DNA of 64,000 bases from Desulfovibrio psychrotolerans (GTDB taxonomy: Bacteria > Desulfobacterota > Desulfovibrionia > Desulfovibrionales > Desulfovibrionaceae): the NCBI RefSeq assembly GCF_013340305.1, contig NZ_BLVP01000006.1, forward strand, positions 1 through 64,000, written 5' to 3'. A program made the translations under genes and the position numbers. Under the pieces are notes generated by a model. The model did no database searches and was not told the DNA's origin. It worked only from the letters and a program-made list of their open reading frames with translations. Of this stretch, positions 1-5,477 are shown piece after piece; the stretch's first letter is position 1, and every line of letters begins with the position of its first letter.

Positions 1-110
1 ATCTGTATCTAATGGTTCCAACCGAAGCCGGAACCACGCTAGCTGATAACTTTTCTGTCCAACTCGCTATTTAATTGTCAAGGAACCTTATCTCACCACA
101 CCTCAGCGGT
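1..110 (-). other. rRNA operon leader or spacer-like sequence (partial)
   Basis: Read on the minus strand, positions 87-76 give GGTTCCTTGACA followed by an AT-rich stretch. This resembles the boxA antitermination element found ahead of 16S and 23S rRNA genes. A perfect 6-bp-arm hairpin (GGTTCC/GGAACC) lies at 14-35. If the reading is right, an rRNA gene begins beyond the left edge and is transcribed leftward. No rRNA body is visible in the window, so this is inference from the boxA-like motif and context. Confidence 0.4.
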
Positions 111-159
111 GCGGGCGCGCACTCCGGCAGGGCATTCCCTGCTGCAAGCGCGAGAAGGC

Positions 160-188
160 GTTTTGCCTGATTCCCCGCTACCTGTCAA
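160..188 (-). promoter_or_regulatory. candidate rRNA-type promoter with UP-like tract
   Basis: On the minus strand TTGACA (188-183) is followed after 17 bp by CAAAAC (165-160). It is preceded by an A-rich stretch (about 190-205) resembling an UP element, and a GC-rich discriminator follows. The -10 match is poor. The call rests mainly on the strong -35, the UP-like tract and the boxA-like leader downstream. Confidence 0.3.
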
Positions 189-325
189 CCACTTTTATTT
201 TTATTCCAGCGATTGTTCCGGGCAGCCTGTTGCTTTTTTCGCCCCGCCCTTTCCACTCTCGTTTTCAGGCATCTTGTTGAGATACTTGGAAAGCGTTGTT
301 CGGGCAGTCCGTCGAAGCGAGAGCG

Positions 326-354
326 GTTCTATGCAAAAGCACCCCGTGCGTCAA
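326..354 (-). promoter_or_regulatory. second candidate promoter toward the left edge
   Basis: On the minus strand TTGACG (354-349), a 17-bp spacer and TAGAAC (331-326) form a plausible sigma70 promoter, upstream of the one at 160-188. Tandem promoters are common ahead of rRNA operons. The alternative is that it is a chance match. No coding sequence supported by codon use was seen between 1 and 462. Confidence 0.25.
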
Positions 355-427
355 CAGCTTTTTTCCTGTTTCCTCGCAAAACACCATAACACACTCAAAA
401 TGCAATGCTTTTTTCTTAAGACATAAC

Positions 428-456
428 GCTGCGGGAGGCCCGAAGCCCCCCGCAGC
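428..456 (-). terminator. hairpin downstream of trpB
   Basis: A GC-rich hairpin (GCTGCGGG paired with CCCGCAGC around a GC-rich centre) lies just after the trpB stop codon. The tail on the minus strand is only weakly T-rich, so it may be a Rho-assisted end or an RNA-stability hairpin. Confidence 0.4.
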
Positions 457-462
457 ACCCAA

Positions 463-1695
463 TCATCGTTTCAGCATGGCAGGAGGAACCACAGTCCCTT
501 CTGTAACCATAGATTCCACCTGTGCCACATCCTTATCGCCCCGGCCGGAGAGGTTCACCAATATGATACTCTCTCTGCCCAGCGTGGGAGCAAGGCGAAT
601 GGCATGAGCCAAGGCGTGCGAAGATTCCAGCGCAGGGATAATCCCCTCCATGCGCGAAAGCATGAAGAAGGCGTCCATGGCCTCGGCATCGCTTGCATGC
701 ACGTACTCGGCCCGCCCTGCATCCTTGAGGAATGCGTGCTCCGGGCCCACGCTGGGATAGTCCAGCCCTGCCGAAATGGAATAGACCTCTGCCGGTTCTC
801 CCTGCGGGTCTTTGAGCATGTAGGAGCGGAATCCGTGCATCACTCCCGGCTCGCCAAGGCACAGCGTGGCCGCATGCTGGCCATATTCAAGCCCGCGCCC
901 GGAGGGTTCCACTCCCACCAGCTTCACCCCCGGTTCATCAATAAAATCTGCAAACAGGCCTATGGCATTGGAGCCGCCGCCCACGCAGGCTACGCAGTAG
1001 TCCGGCAGACGCCCCTCTGCCTCGCGCATCTGCCGTTTGGCCTCACGCCCCACCACCGACTGAAATTCACGCACGATAGCAGGATACGGATGCGGCCCCA
1101 CGGCGGAACCCAGCAGGTAGAACGTTTCTTCCGCATCCTGCACCCATGCGCCCAGCGCTTCGTCCACGGCTTCCTTCAACGTTTTCTGCCCGCTCTGGGC
1201 GGCCACAACCTTGGCTCCCATCATCTGCATGCGGAACACGTTCAGCTTCTGCCGCTCCACATCCACGGCCCCCATATAGATGGTGCATTCCATGCCCATA
1301 AGCGCCGCCGTGGCCGCCGTGGCAACCCCGTGCTGACCGGCTCCCGTCTCGGCAATGATCTTCTTTTTGCCCATGCGCTTCGCAAGCAGTATCTGCCCGA
1401 TGGTGTTGTTCACCTTGTGCGCGCCAAGGTGGTTCAGGTCTTCCCGCTTGAGATATATCTTGGCACCGCCCAGTGCTTTTGTAAGGTTGGAGCACAGATA
1501 CACCGGCGTTTCGCGTCCCGAAAAATGCTTGAGATAGTAATTGAATTCCCTGAGGAACTCCGGGTCGTTCCGATATGTTTCAAACGCCTGCGCCAGCGTA
1601 TCCAGAATGGGCTTGAGCGGTTCGGGCACATACTGCCCGCCGTACTGGCCAAAGAACCCTGCGGCGTCCGGCATAGCGGGGGATACGGTAGTCAT
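463..1695 (-). CDS. trpB: tryptophan synthase beta chain
   Basis: TrpB condenses indole with L-serine to tryptophan, using pyridoxal phosphate. The 410-residue product has the full family pattern: an N-terminal [11 protein letters not shown] segment, the PLP lysine in HKVNNTIGQ (Lys94), the ETGAGQHG motif, and the glycine-rich phosphate loop GGGSNAIG. The start at 1695 is chosen because AAGGAG lies 9 bp upstream on the minus strand and family similarity begins soon after; a longer frame would run into the attenuator. No other trp gene lies beside it in the window, so it is a single-gene unit here. It is preceded by its own trp leader (1784-1968) and probably obtains TrpA and the rest of the pathway from elsewhere. 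Confidence 0.97.
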
Positions 1696-1783
1696 GGGGC
1701 TAACTCCTTTTGATGATCCAGCGTTGTTGACGATGCGGATGAAAGATGGTCCGTTCTCCGATACCCGGGCAGACAGCCGGCCA

Positions 1784-1820
1784 CAAAAAAACCGCGGCCA
1801 GTTGTGACTGCCGCGGTTTA
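1784..1820 (-). terminator. trp attenuator (3:4 terminator hairpin)
   Basis: On the minus strand the arms AAACCGCGG (1819-1811) and CCGCGGTTT (1797-1789) form a perfect 9-bp stem with a 13-nt loop, followed by a run of T (1791-1785). It sits between the leader peptide and trpB. It is therefore an intrinsic terminator inside the leader transcript, the classical attenuation position. Confidence 0.85.
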
Positions 1821-1864
1821 CTCTTTTTCCGTTGCTGCTTCGCCCAGCGCGAAACAAAACGCTT

Positions 1865-1886
1865 CCACGGCACTGTTACCAGTGCC
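1865..1886 (-). promoter_or_regulatory. trp leader pause hairpin and antiterminator strand
   Basis: GGCACTG-GTAA-CAGTGCC (1886-1869) is a perfect 1:2 hairpin that spans the Trp codons and stop of the leader peptide. Its 3' part, TGCCGTGG (1872-1865), can pair over 8 bp, with one G-U, with CCGCGGCA (1816-1809) of the terminator. Stalling at the Trp codons would free strand 2 to form the 2:3 antiterminator. The alternative structures are read directly from the sequence; their operation is inferred from known trp leaders. Confidence 0.8.
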
Positions 1887-1932
1887 ACCACCAATTGCGA
1901 AGAGAAAGGGTGTTACCAAAAGCGTTTTTCAT
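1876..1932 (-). CDS. trpL: trp operon leader peptide
   Basis: This 18-codon frame encodes MKNAFGNTLSLRNWWWHW, with four Trp codons among the last five positions, and ends in TAA within the pause hairpin. Tandem Trp codons followed by mutually exclusive hairpins and a terminator are diagnostic of a trp attenuator leader. No Shine-Dalgarno is visible ahead of the ATG. The promoter -10 ends only 7 bp upstream, so the message may be leaderless or nearly so. The peptide's role is to sense charged tRNA-Trp by ribosome stalling, not to act as a protein. Confidence 0.88.
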   Translation of the reverse strand: MKNAFGNTLSLRNWWWHW

Positions 1933-1939
1933 GAAGGCG

Positions 1940-1968
1940 ATACTGTACGAAACAGCAGTCCTTGTCAA
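1940..1968 (-). promoter_or_regulatory. sigma70 promoter of trpL-trpB
   Basis: On the minus strand TTGACA (1968-1963), an exact 17-bp spacer and CAGTAT (1945-1940) make a strong sigma70 promoter. The expected start lies at about 1933, next to the trpL ATG at 1932. No clear TrpR operator is seen over it. Confidence 0.7.
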
Positions 1969-1980
1969 GAAAGCCGGCAC

Positions 1981-2372
1981 TTCATGAACCGCAAGCAGAA
2001 CCCCCATCCGCACTTTTTACGAGGCTAACCATCTGAATTGCCATATAGACATCGCAAGCGCCTTGCTCTGAGCAGTGAGACGCGCCCAAGCCGCAAACAC
2101 ATTCCGTGCCTGCTTCGCCCCTTTCCCCGCCTGCAGAATATTGCAGAATTGTAAAAAAGGCATTACAACACTCTCCGCTGTCTGTGAGCACCCACTGCGA
2201 CACCCCTTTTGCACGGCACAAAGACTGCCAAAGGACGTATTCCCCGGTGCACACAGGACAACGTCACCGCCTGCTGGCCACGGCGTTGCCCTGCAGGCTC
2301 CCATGGCAAGGACAAGGCGCCCGCACCACGCGCCGCACATACAACCCGTTCGCTTCAAGGAGTTACCCGCCC
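1981..2372 (+). promoter_or_regulatory. intergenic region upstream of the TRAP operon with inverted repeat
   Basis: No convincing gene lies in this 392-bp gap. TTGTAA-N8-TTACAA at 2149-2168 is a perfect 6-bp inverted repeat about 200 bp ahead of dctP. It resembles the half-sites of CRP/FNR-family or Rex-type regulators, but the spacing fits none of them well. A Shine-Dalgarno AAGGAG (2357-2362) precedes dctP. The promoter itself was not identified. Confidence 0.3.
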
Positions 2373-3458
2373 ATGAACAGATTCGCCTCTCTCGCGCTTG
2401 CAGTCCTCATCCTTGCCTTTTTCGCGCTTCCTGCCCTTGCCGGGACCAAAGGCGACTACAAGCCGGAATACAAGCTCAGCGTGGTTCCCGGTCCCACCTC
2501 CGGCTGGGGACTTTCTGCCACCTATTTTGCCGATCTGGTCGCCCAACGCACGGAAGGGCGCATTGTCATCAAGCCCTATTTCGGCAGTCAGCTTCTGGCG
2601 GGTAAGCAGACGTCCGAATTCCTTATGGTACGCAACGGGGCCATAGATTTCGCCCTTGCCTCCACCATCAACTGGTCTCCGCAGGTAAAGGAGCTGAACC
2701 TGACCGCCCTGCCCTTCATGCTCGCTGCGGAACCGGACCGCTACAAGGCACTGGACGCCATTGAAACCGGTGCATCCGGCAAGATGATGATCGAGGCCAT
2801 AGAGGGCAAGGGCGTGAAGATCATCGGCTGGGGAGAAAACGGCTTCCGCGAACTGACCAACAGCAAGCGCCCCGTTTCTGCCCCCGAAGATATGAAAGAC
2901 CTGAAGATACGAGTGGTGGGCAGCCCCATCTTCATAGACACCTTCCGCGCACTGGGAGCCAACCCGGTGAACATGAACTGGGCAGAAGCCACCACCGGCT
3001 TTCAGCAGGGCGTGGTGGACGGACAGGAGAACCCGGTGAACGGCATCTGCATTCCCGTTAAAATCTGGACCTACCACACCTATCTCACCGACTGGAACTA
3101 CATTGTAGACCCGCTTCTTCTGGGCGTTAACCCCAAGGTATGGTCCTCCTTCAGCCCTGAGGACCAGCAGATTCTGCTGGAATGCGCGCAGCTGGCAGAA
3201 CGCTACGGCAAGGCTATTGCCCGCGTGGGCATGGATAACGGCGAATCGCTCGCCTATTTGCAGGAGATAGGCATGGCACCGGAAGTGGCCGACCCGTTCG
3301 CCTTTCTGGCTGAGAAGGGTATGACGGTAATCAGACTCACCCCTGAACAGTCCAAGGCGTTCCATGACGCCACTGCGCCGGTGCGCGCAAACTGGATACC
3401 GCAGATTGGTGAAGGGCTTGTGCAGGCCGCAGAGGCCGATATGGCTTCCGTTCGCTGA
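2373..3458 (+). CDS. dctP: TRAP transporter solute-binding protein (DctP family)
   Basis: This is the periplasmic binding protein of a tripartite ATP-independent periplasmic transporter, which captures a carboxylate-type substrate and hands it to the DctQM membrane subunits. The 361-residue product starts with a clear Sec signal peptide (about residues 1-23, cleavage after ALA). It carries DctP-family features, including the conserved asparagine/proline-rich segment near QQGVVDGQENP. The start at 2373 is chosen for the AAGGAG 10 bp upstream and the signal peptide. dctQ and dctM follow on the same strand, which confirms the system type. The substrate cannot be read from the sequence. Confidence 0.93.
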   Translation: MNRFASLALAVLILAFFALPALAGTKGDYKPEYKLSVVPGPTSGWGLSATYFADLVAQRTEGRIVIKPYFGSQLLAGKQTSEFLMVRNGAIDFALASTINWSPQVKELNLTALPFMLAAEPDRYKALDAIETGASGKMMIEAIEGKGVKIIGWGENGFRELTNSKRPVSAPEDMKDLKIRVVGSPIFIDTFRALGANPVNMNWAEATTGFQQGVVDGQENPVNGICIPVKIWTYHTYLTDWNYIVDPLLLGVNPKVWSSFSPEDQQILLECAQLAERYGKAIARVGMDNGESLAYLQEIGMAPEVADPFAFLAEKGMTVIRLTPEQSKAFHDATAPVRANWIPQIGEGLVQAAEADMASVR

Positions 3459-3464
3459 CCTGCT

Positions 3465-3524
3465 GCCCAAAGACTGCCCGCCCAAAGACTGCATACCTGA
3501 AGACTGTATAACGGAAGACTGCAT
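3465..3524 (+). repeat. four tandem 15-bp repeats between dctP and dctQ
   Basis: Units begin at 3465, 3480, 3495 and 3510. They share the core AAGACTG with flanking changes that increase along the array. They lie just after the dctP stop codon and do not form a hairpin or a coding sequence with obvious meaning. Confidence 0.8.
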
Positions 3525-3622
3525 GGCGGCGTGGGCTGTACAGACCGGACCGCGCCGCCATGCTCTGAAAATGCCGAACCGCACCGCTCCCGTTTTTTAC
3601 TTGGTATCGCCGCCGGCGTCAT

Positions 3623-3662
3623 AACCGGCATCACTGCCTTCATCACAACCGGCATCACTGCC
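3623..3662 (+). repeat. direct 16-bp duplication upstream of dctQ
   Basis: AACCGGCATCACTGCC occurs at 3623-3638 and again at 3647-3662 (24-bp period). It is in frame with dctQ and would read as a hydrophobic GITA-rich segment if translation began upstream of the chosen start. Confidence 0.8.
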
Positions 3663-3689
3663 GTGATAGCTGCCGAGGAAACCCGAGCC

Positions 3690-4160
3690 ATGTTCAAATT
3701 CATATGGGATCGTTTCGAGGAACTGCTGGGCTCACTCCTGCTCTTCGTCATGGTAGCCATTGCCTTTGCCAACGTCGTCACCCGCTACTGCATCAAAATG
3801 TCTCTTTCATGGACGGAAGAGATCACCGTAAACCTGTTCGTATGGGTAGTTCTTCTCGGCACAGCTTATGCCTTTCGCAAAGACAACCATCTGAGCGTCA
3901 CCCTGCTGCACGATGCCATGCCGCCATGGGCGCAACGGGCCTGCCGTGCGTTCTCGCTCATCGTATGCGTCGGTTTCTTTGCCGCCCTGTGCTGGCTGGG
4001 CATGGTGGAAGTGCGCGACGAGATGGATCTGGAGGTCATCACCGAGTCGCTTGCCATTCCGGTATGGTGGTACACTGTGGCAACCCCCGCCTTCTCGCTG
4101 CTCATCATCGTGCGCATTCTGGAACGCGCATGGCAAGACCTGCGTAACGGCAGGCTGTAG
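3690..4160 (+). CDS. dctQ: TRAP transporter small membrane subunit (DctQ family)
   Basis: DctQ is the four-helix membrane subunit of the TRAP transporter and partners with DctM. The 156-residue product has four hydrophobic helices and the family motif around SWTEEITVNLFVW in the second helix region. The start at 3690 is supported by GAGGA about 10 bp upstream. The same frame stays open upstream to about 3531 and encodes a hydrophobic GITA-repeat segment, so a longer N-terminus cannot be excluded. The gene lies between dctP (gap with repeats) and dctM (9-bp gap), as expected for one operon. Confidence 0.9.
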   Translation: MFKFIWDRFEELLGSLLLFVMVAIAFANVVTRYCIKMSLSWTEEITVNLFVWVVLLGTAYAFRKDNHLSVTLLHDAMPPWAQRACRAFSLIVCVGFFAALCWLGMVEVRDEMDLEVITESLAIPVWWYTVATPAFSLLIIVRILERAWQDLRNGRL

Positions 4161-4169
4161 GGGGCAAGC

Positions 4170-5477
4170 ATGGAATCACTCATACAAGACCCCGCCCTGT
4201 GGGCCGTGCTGCTTTTTGTTACCCCGCTCCTGCTGCGCGTGCCCATTGCCGTGGCCCTTGGCGGGGCGGCGCTGGCCGTGGCCTATCGCTGGGACCTAGG
4301 ATACGAGATGCTCTCGTACAACATCTACGCCGGAGTGGCCAAGTTCCCGCTGCTGGCCATCCCCTTCTTCATTCTCGCGGGCATTATCATGGAACGGGCG
4401 GGCATTGCCGCACGCATTGTGGACCTGATGAAGGCGCTTGTTGGGTCCATGACGGGCGGTTTGGGTATTGCCACGGTGGCAGTGGCCACCTTCTGGGGCG
4501 CAGTAAGCGGCTCCGGGCCTGCCACGGTGGCTGCGCTGGGACTCATACTCATTCCGGGCATGGCGTGCGCGGGATATGACAAGCGGTTCGCCACGGCGGT
4601 GGTTTCCGTCACGTCCGGGCTGGCTATTGTCATTCCGCCCAGCATCGCCTTTATCGTTTACGGGGGTGTTGCCAACGTCTCTGTGCCCGCCCTGTTTGCG
4701 GCAGGATTCATCCCCGGCATTCTGGTGGCCCTGTGCCTTGCCGGGTCGGTATGGCTCACAAGCTGGCGGCACGGCTACCGGGGCAGCTGCGGGCCGGGAG
4801 AAGAACCGGCGCGCGTATGGCCTGCGCTCCGCCGCGCCTTCTGGGGCGTGATGACTCCGGTGATCATCCTCGGCGGTATATACGGCGGCGTATTCACTCC
4901 CACGGAGGCAGCGGCCGTGGCCGTATTCTACGGATTATTCGTGGGCGTTTTCGTCTACCGGACCATCCGGTCCGTGAGGGAACTCTTTGAGATTTTCGCC
5001 GCCACGATGCACGGCACTGCCGTGGTGATGATTGTTGTCACCTGCGCGGGGCTGTTCTCATGGGTGGGGGCGACAGTGGGACTTGTGGAAAAAGGTTCCG
5101 CCGTGCTGCTTGGTGCTTCAGACAGCCAATGGGTCATCCTGTTCATGATCAATGCCATTCTGCTGCTGGCGGGCATGGTACTGGATGCCATTTCCATCTA
5201 TTACGTCTTTCTGCCCGTCATGCTGCCGCTTATCCACCACTTCGGGTGGGACCCCATATGGTTCGGGGTGATGATGACGGTGAACCTCGCCGTGGGTCAG
5301 GTAACGCCGCCCGTGGCAGTGAACCTGTACGTAGGCGCGAACATCAGCGGCCTTACCATGGAAGAAATTGCCAGACCGGCTCTGCCGCTTATCTTTGCCG
5401 CGCTTATCGCGCTGGCTTTCATCGTGGCGTTTCCGGACCTCTCCACCTTCCTGCCGCGGCTTCTGGGGCTTGAATGA
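4170..5477 (+). CDS. dctM: TRAP transporter large permease (DctM family)
   Basis: DctM is the ion-coupled permease of the TRAP system. The 435-residue product has about 12 hydrophobic segments. It shows the DctM pattern of a re-entrant glycine-rich stretch (GAVSGSGPATVAALG) and a C-terminal MMTVNLAVGQVTPPVAVNLY segment. The length is typical for the family. It starts 9 bp after dctQ with a GGGGG Shine-Dalgarno, so it is co-transcribed. No partner regulator gene is adjacent. Confidence 0.95.
   Translation: MESLIQDPALWAVLLFVTPLLLRVPIAVALGGAALAVAYRWDLGYEMLSYNIYAGVAKFPLLAIPFFILAGIIMERAGIAARIVDLMKALVGSMTGGLGIATVAVATFWGAVSGSGPATVAALGLILIPGMACAGYDKRFATAVVSVTSGLAIVIPPSIAFIVYGGVANVSVPALFAAGFIPGILVALCLAGSVWLTSWRHGYRGSCGPGEEPARVWPALRRAFWGVMTPVIILGGIYGGVFTPTEAAAVAVFYGLFVGVFVYRTIRSVRELFEIFAATMHGTAVVMIVVTCAGLFSWVGATVGLVEKGSAVLLGASDSQWVILFMINAILLLAGMVLDAISIYYVFLPVMLPLIHHFGWDPIWFGVMMTVNLAVGQVTPPVAVNLYVGANISGLTMEEIARPALPLIFAALIALAFIVAFPDLSTFLPRLLGLE

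Follow-up and report, generated by a model that had tools for sequence, protein, structure and literature searches.

Organization of the trpB locus

The window analysed here is a 64-kb stretch of DNA at the start of contig C6, in a genome of 3.79 Mb distributed over 47 contigs. Its minus strand carries a stand-alone trpB gene preceded by a short leader, which occupies the space between trpB and plus-strand genes (first ATG at ~2373) that, named from their sequence, look like those of a TRAP-type transporter. The parts of the leader and the gene itself are as follows.

1963..1968, minus strand: -35 box TTGACA, read directly
1947-1942, minus strand: alternative -10 candidate TACAGT at a spacing of 15, read directly
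1940..1945, minus strand: weak -10 candidate CAGTAT at a spacing of 17, read directly; the -10 elements of relatives are poor too
1876..1932, minus strand: leader peptide ORF MKNAFGNTLSLRNWWWHW*, predicted to be leaderless
1885..1893, minus strand: putative sensor of three consecutive Trp codons, with a fourth Trp codon at 1881-1879
1869..1886, minus strand: pause hairpin 1:2, GGCACTG-GTAA-CAGTGCC, 7 bp, from folding
1865..1872, minus strand: antiterminator strand (region 2) UGCCGUGG, pairing with 1816-1809
1816-1809, minus strand: antiterminator partner CCGCGGCA, inside the terminator, forming eight pairs with UGCCGUGG, one of them G-U
1789..1819, minus strand: terminator hairpin 3:4
1785..1791, minus strand: terminator T-run of seven T, its first bases shared with the terminator 3' arm
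463..1695, minus strand: solo trpB (TIGR00263), 410 aa from the ATG at 1695, with a Shine-Dalgarno sequence AGGAG at 1708-1704

The leader ORF opens with an ATG at 1932-1930 and ends, after 18 codons, with a TAA at 1878-1876; in its product, Trp occupies four of the last five positions, which can be read directly from 1932-1876 and agrees with the preliminary description. No Shine-Dalgarno sequence was seen before the ATG at 1932, and the antiterminator strand starts at the fourth base past the leader stop codon. A 464-codon ORF running from a TTG at 1857 through the terminator into trpB was set aside as a chance opening; the Shine-Dalgarno sequence belongs to the ATG at 1695.

The TrpB of the window matches the TIGR00263 trpB model with 603.2 bits, against a curated cut-off of 392.45. 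The genome possesses one other trpB at C10:35967-37121, which is 51% identical and adjoins the single trpA of the genome. The remaining trp genes, trpEGDCFA, are on this different contig, in the order aroA, tyrA, trpE, trpG, trpD, trpC, trpF, trpB, trpA (names assigned from protein sequences, with trpE, trpB and trpA checked). With the other copy inside the C10 trp operon, the trpB of the window is an extra, stand-alone one. The flanks of 145 solo trpB loci (125 + 20), searched mostly over 800-900 nt per side, up to 3 kb for some and less at contig ends, yielded no trpA, trpC or trpF, while all three were found in locus L004, which served as the positive control. The earlier proposal that the attenuator serves a single trpB gene is supported by these flanks.

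Folding of the leader and database scans

When folded, the leader RNA as a whole gave z = -3.1 against shuffled sequences, and the pause, antiterminator and terminator elements proposed for it were all present. The pause hairpin over the Trp codons (1886-1869) has seven perfect base pairs and a folding energy of -13.6 kcal/mol, and one of 200 dinucleotide shuffles folds equally well. The terminator, described beforehand as a 9-bp stem with a T-run, does carry the T-run (1791-1785), but its stem folds as 10 bp and 3 bp around a bulged G (-19.0 kcal/mol), a value matched by none of 200 shuffles. The proposed 8-bp antiterminator is likewise found, with eight pairs including one G-U between 1872-1865 and 1816-1809; taken alone in the window, this pairing is not significant (p = 0.11, composition shuffle of the leader), and its support therefore comes from relatives.

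The promoter had been called strong. This holds for the -35 box at 1968-1963; the -10 element is poor, and a scan for the sigma-70 consensus listed no promoter at the leader. A terminator scan likewise did not list the leader terminator at 1819-1789. The covariance model of the Rfam trp leader, whose number is RF00513 in the accessible part of PMC3766115, gave no match at E ≤ 1 in positions 1-4200 of the window, so the leader would work like a trp leader and yet lies outside the Rfam trp-leader sequence family. Assignment of the leader to a known riboswitch or to another Rfam family was rejected: the sole match at E ≤ 1 was a sub-threshold DnaX element (E 0.66) over the terminator.

Conservation of the leader in the Desulfovibrionales

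Some trpB match was present in 290 of the 297 genomes of the order, and at least 132 of the 297, a lower bound counted among the matches listed, contain a solo-class trpB (identity ≥ 61%). The upstream regions of 130 of these 132 loci were compared, G222 (at a contig edge) and G278 being left out, as were loci L009-L023, which partly repeat genomes already in the set. A Trp-codon leader precedes trpB at 88 of the 130 loci: 71 among the first 110, 10 among the last 20, and 7 (L220 and six loci of genus g9) in which it lies at a greater distance from trpB. In the other 81 of the 130 loci, the short ORF with neighbouring Trp codons, WW or WWW, starts 90-260 nt before trpB. The count includes L174, which has a WW ORF without promoter and without terminator. 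By genus, the leader is found at 86/90 loci outside g3 versus 2/40 within g3; the window belongs to genus g1. The two g3 leaders are those of L206 (G233) and L389 (G260). Separately, in the four g9 loci viewed out of six (L161, L162, L164 and L168), the Trp-Trp leader and the pause hairpin are kept, and no T-run occurs at the expected place.

A terminator accompanies 67 of the 71 leaders from the first 110 loci, and in 38 of those 67 the antiterminator scores p < 0.05 against shuffles. A rule-defined hairpin was available for 66 of the 71 leaders, 60 of them distinct; after L206, L225 and L227 were set aside for hairpins that are not sequence-homologous, an alignment of 57 distinct rows was obtained. 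In this alignment, the paired cells amount to 298/326 for the pause hairpin, 394/456 for the antiterminator and 444/453 for the terminator. One position of the pause hairpin shows six standard pair types (GC, GT, TA, CG, AT and TG). Only 15/57 rows retain the antiterminator pair at the outer end, which makes seven pairs the safer figure. In 14 rows of genus g13, the pair CCGCGGC/GCCGUGG is replaced by CCGCGAC/GUCGCGG and the terminator 3' arm changes too; the change of the shared arm from CCGCGGC to CCGCGAC is accompanied by changes in both of its pairing partners. This compensated change may represent one event, the 14 rows being related, and L114, also of g13, retains the common form of the arm. 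L206 shows the same architecture built from unrelated antiterminator and terminator letters (p = 0.000).

Outside its WWW end, the peptide varies freely among genera; what recurs together in relatives is the leader ORF, the position of the -35 box, the pause hairpin, the antiterminator and the terminator, and these elements, their geometry and their conservation are matters of direct observation. The pattern TTGACA-ATG-TGGTGG occurs in the window's own genome at the window locus (twice) and at three other places. It might be supposed that a promoter and a terminator were left over from another gene and that the Trp-rich ORF arose by chance, as the modest scores of individual pairings and the absence of the leader from most g3 loci would allow. 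However, a short ORF with neighbouring Trp codons recurs at 86/90 loci outside g3, and promoter distance and hairpins are conserved among the analysed loci, which makes such a coincidence extremely improbable.

Promoter spacing and the predicted leaderless start

In 58/71 leaders, an exact TTGACA starts 35-39 nt ahead of the ATG, and this hexamer occurs only twice in 17,356 bases further upstream of the leaders. In 57/66 cases, the best -10 candidate has its end 6-10 nt ahead of the ATG, a distance that would put +1 on the ATG or immediately beside it. These candidates match TATAAT at three of six positions in 36/66 cases, at four of six in 15 and at fewer in 15. A Shine-Dalgarno-like motif was detected at 1/71 leader ATGs versus 63/71 near the trpB start, where the searched stretch was four times wider (52 bases versus 13). 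The earlier remark that the leader lacks a Shine-Dalgarno sequence thus extends from the window to 70/71 leaders. From the fixed TTGACA-ATG distance and the missing Shine-Dalgarno motif, it is predicted that the mRNA of the leader peptide is leaderless, with a transcript starting at the AUG. Alternatively, the attenuator could be real and its RNA start further upstream, giving the leader peptide a normal 5' untranslated region. The poor -10 element, which leaves the true promoter uncertain, speaks for such a start; it is nevertheless unlikely, as it explains neither the 35-39 nt spacing of TTGACA (58/71) nor the lack of a Shine-Dalgarno-like motif (70/71).

Proposed mechanism of trpB attenuation

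Based on the arrangement and conservation of these elements, the leader is very probably a trp transcription attenuator of the ribosome-mediated type, with the stand-alone trpB as its one target gene. RNA polymerase would start at or next to the leader ATG, and the ribosome would load onto a leaderless mRNA. Given the usual ribosome footprint, a ribosome on the first Trp codons would expose 1872-1865, and a ribosome at the stop codon would cover it, as in classical attenuation. When charged tRNA-Trp is ample, the ribosome could reach the UAA and cover region 2, the 3:4 hairpin could then form and transcription would end at ~1785. When charged tRNA-Trp is scarce, the ribosome may stall on the UGGUGGUGG run, leaving 1872-1865 free to pair with 1816-1809, and the polymerase would proceed into trpB.

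The chief product could instead be a trans-acting one, either the terminated RNA of ~150 nt or the peptide, as has been described for rnTrpL and peTrpL of Sinorhizobium; in favour of this, the terminated RNA, predicted to be leaderless, is similar to rnTrpL as presented in the available text of PMC7298713. A conserved function of the peptide is not suggested by its free variation between genera outside the WWW end, and a chief role in trans is considered highly unlikely.

Origin and possible role of the solo trpB

In a tree of 64 proteins, all 30 solo TrpBs fall into one clade (support 100/98), together with four from betaproteobacterial or proteobacterial metagenome bins. This clade branches among TrpBs of Bacillota, a nearness that stems partly from choice, the Bacillota rows having been taken as the query's best matches. 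The order's 13 other TrpBs, which were picked by lower identity to the query and for which the operon was seen in L007 only, fall outside it. A recent duplication of trpB is ruled out by this separation. The solo trpB was probably acquired horizontally, and an old acquisition would be the simplest reading of the tree.

The four metagenome proteins, L018-L021, come from bins labelled Burkholderiales, Betaproteobacteria or Proteobacteria; the leader is absent from these loci, and their position inside the Desulfovibrionales solo clade reflects either transfer or mis-binning. At G213:C10:124298-134939, a stretch of ~11 kb holds tyrA and both trpB genes, of which the solo one is encoded on the opposite strand.

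The product of trpB would make tryptophan from indole and serine. From this reaction of the TrpB family, the likely role of the solo enzyme would be indole salvage or the supply of extra TrpB when tryptophan is short.

A putative second attenuator at the tyrA-trpE junction

In the trp operon of the same genome, tyrA, a full-size prephenate dehydrogenase gene, ends in ...VERALWWWRENSNTGGVRQ, and a strong terminator lies between its stop codon and trpE. In this region, which runs from the tyrA 3' end to trpE (L004 ~2279-2390, in G000:C10), the last tyrA codons contain Trp-Trp-Trp and an antiterminator strand; 12 bases, GGGAGGAGUGCG, within these final codons (~L004:2305-2316) are able to form pairs with the terminator sequence CGCGUUCCUCCC. 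A second attenuator could operate here without a leader gene, the end of tyrA carrying Trp-Trp-Trp as well as, in several of the genera, a part of the antiterminator.

A survey of the order covered 136 tyrA loci, of which 127 were usable, the other nine being duplicates, wrong-segment fragments or tails without Trp. Where WWW lies near the TyrA end and trpE follows at least 60 nt downstream, a terminator is present at 91/94 loci, and 81/94 also have an antiterminator with p ≤ 0.05. At the 10 loci with WWW and no trpE found in the flank, four have a terminator and one an antiterminator pair; the seven loci with no WWW and a gap to trpE of at least 60 nt yielded three and two, respectively, and the three loci with neither WWW nor such a gap yielded one and none. 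Overlap or near contact of tyrA with trpE is seen at 13 loci, which stand outside these terminator counts; four of them have WWW. No WW was found in the last 45 residues of the 21 best-matching TyrA proteins from outside the order (L342-L362).

The letters of the antiterminator differ widely by genus (GGGAGAAGUGC/GCACUUCUUCC, GGGGUGCGGC/GCCGCACCCC and others), and for g13 and a large part of g7 this strand is located outside the gene, immediately behind the tyrA stop codon. Several g3 TyrAs keep WWW without trpE in the flank, which speaks against a purely regulatory reading: the tail could have some importance for the enzyme itself, and a structural role is the chief competing explanation.

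The last codons of full-size TyrA may thus serve as a trp leader peptide. It is likely, on balance, that tryptophan synthesis in the Desulfovibrionales is under two separate attenuators, namely the leaderless leader before the solo trpB and the C-terminal Trp-Trp-Trp of TyrA, where the ribosome finishing TyrA would act as the tryptophan sensor that gates trpEGDCFBA. If this is true, the C-terminus of an enzyme is kept partly for regulating the next genes. The junction offers a testable second layer, in which the trp operon would have its leader peptide in the C-terminal Trp codons of a biosynthetic enzyme, and it is a bigger surprise than the attenuator of the window.

A different feature was observed in g7, where the space from the tyrA terminator to trpE holds a conserved 25-codon ORF in which codon 5 is an in-frame TGA in 14/14 copies (L308, L309, L310, L312, L316, L317, L318, L320, L321, L322, L325, L328, L329 and L333). 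Its product follows the pattern M-x-x-T-TGA-[KR]-x-x-E-N-x-K-K-x-K-G-W-[QE]-V-I-P-R-P-Y-[HN], the exact form of which was found in 9/297 genomes, all of g7. Many silent changes past the TGA, judged by eye, suggest readthrough, and there is weak support for a hairpin able to serve selenocysteine insertion.

Comparison with known attenuation systems

According to the accessible part of a 2005 survey (PMC1173090), the supraoperon of D. vulgaris ends with aroF > tyrA > trp operon, and a database-predicted attenuator lies ahead of the first gene of the whole aro-tyrA-trp supraoperon; Trp codons in tyrA are not mentioned in that part. The available portions of two regulon surveys (PMC5343134 and PMC3766115) and of a 2004 delta-proteobacterial study (PMC545781) do not mention the attenuators described here either. 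Among the matches listed in the open-access literature, neither the trpB nor the tyrA-trpE attenuator was found in print.

The trpL leader of E. coli is the classic ribosome-mediated attenuator and controls trpEDCBA. The leader of the window is similar to it in its tandem-Trp leader peptide, its 1:2 pause, its 2:3 antiterminator and its 3:4 terminator followed by a U-run. In contrast to E. coli trpL, it controls one stand-alone trpB, has no Shine-Dalgarno sequence and does not match the Rfam trp leader. Classical trp attenuation is conserved in a sulfate-reducing order, where it is aimed at a lone trpB and is leaderless by prediction. Attenuation at rph-pyrE of E. coli senses UTP by means of the coupling of transcription and translation. 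The attenuator proposed for tyrA-trpE, though not that of the window's trpB, resembles rph-pyrE in that an upstream full-size gene is used as the translated leader, and differs from it in its Trp codons and in the presence of a strand for antitermination.

That an attenuator should serve one gene alone was regarded as unusual in the preliminary description; the target is indeed one gene, but the arrangement is less odd in view of Sinorhizobium meliloti, in which, of three trp operons, trpE(G) alone is attenuated and the rnTrpL RNA starts with the ATG of trpL, as given in the accessible text of PMC7298713. Given this precedent, neither a leaderless start nor a single-gene target is new. As far as that text describes it, trpLE(G) shares with the window one attenuated target and an RNA that starts at the leader ATG, a start that is predicted here. 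The target in Sinorhizobium, trpE(G), is the first step of the pathway, whereas the leader of the window, which belongs to a different phylum and has a different sequence, precedes the gene for the last step, trpB.
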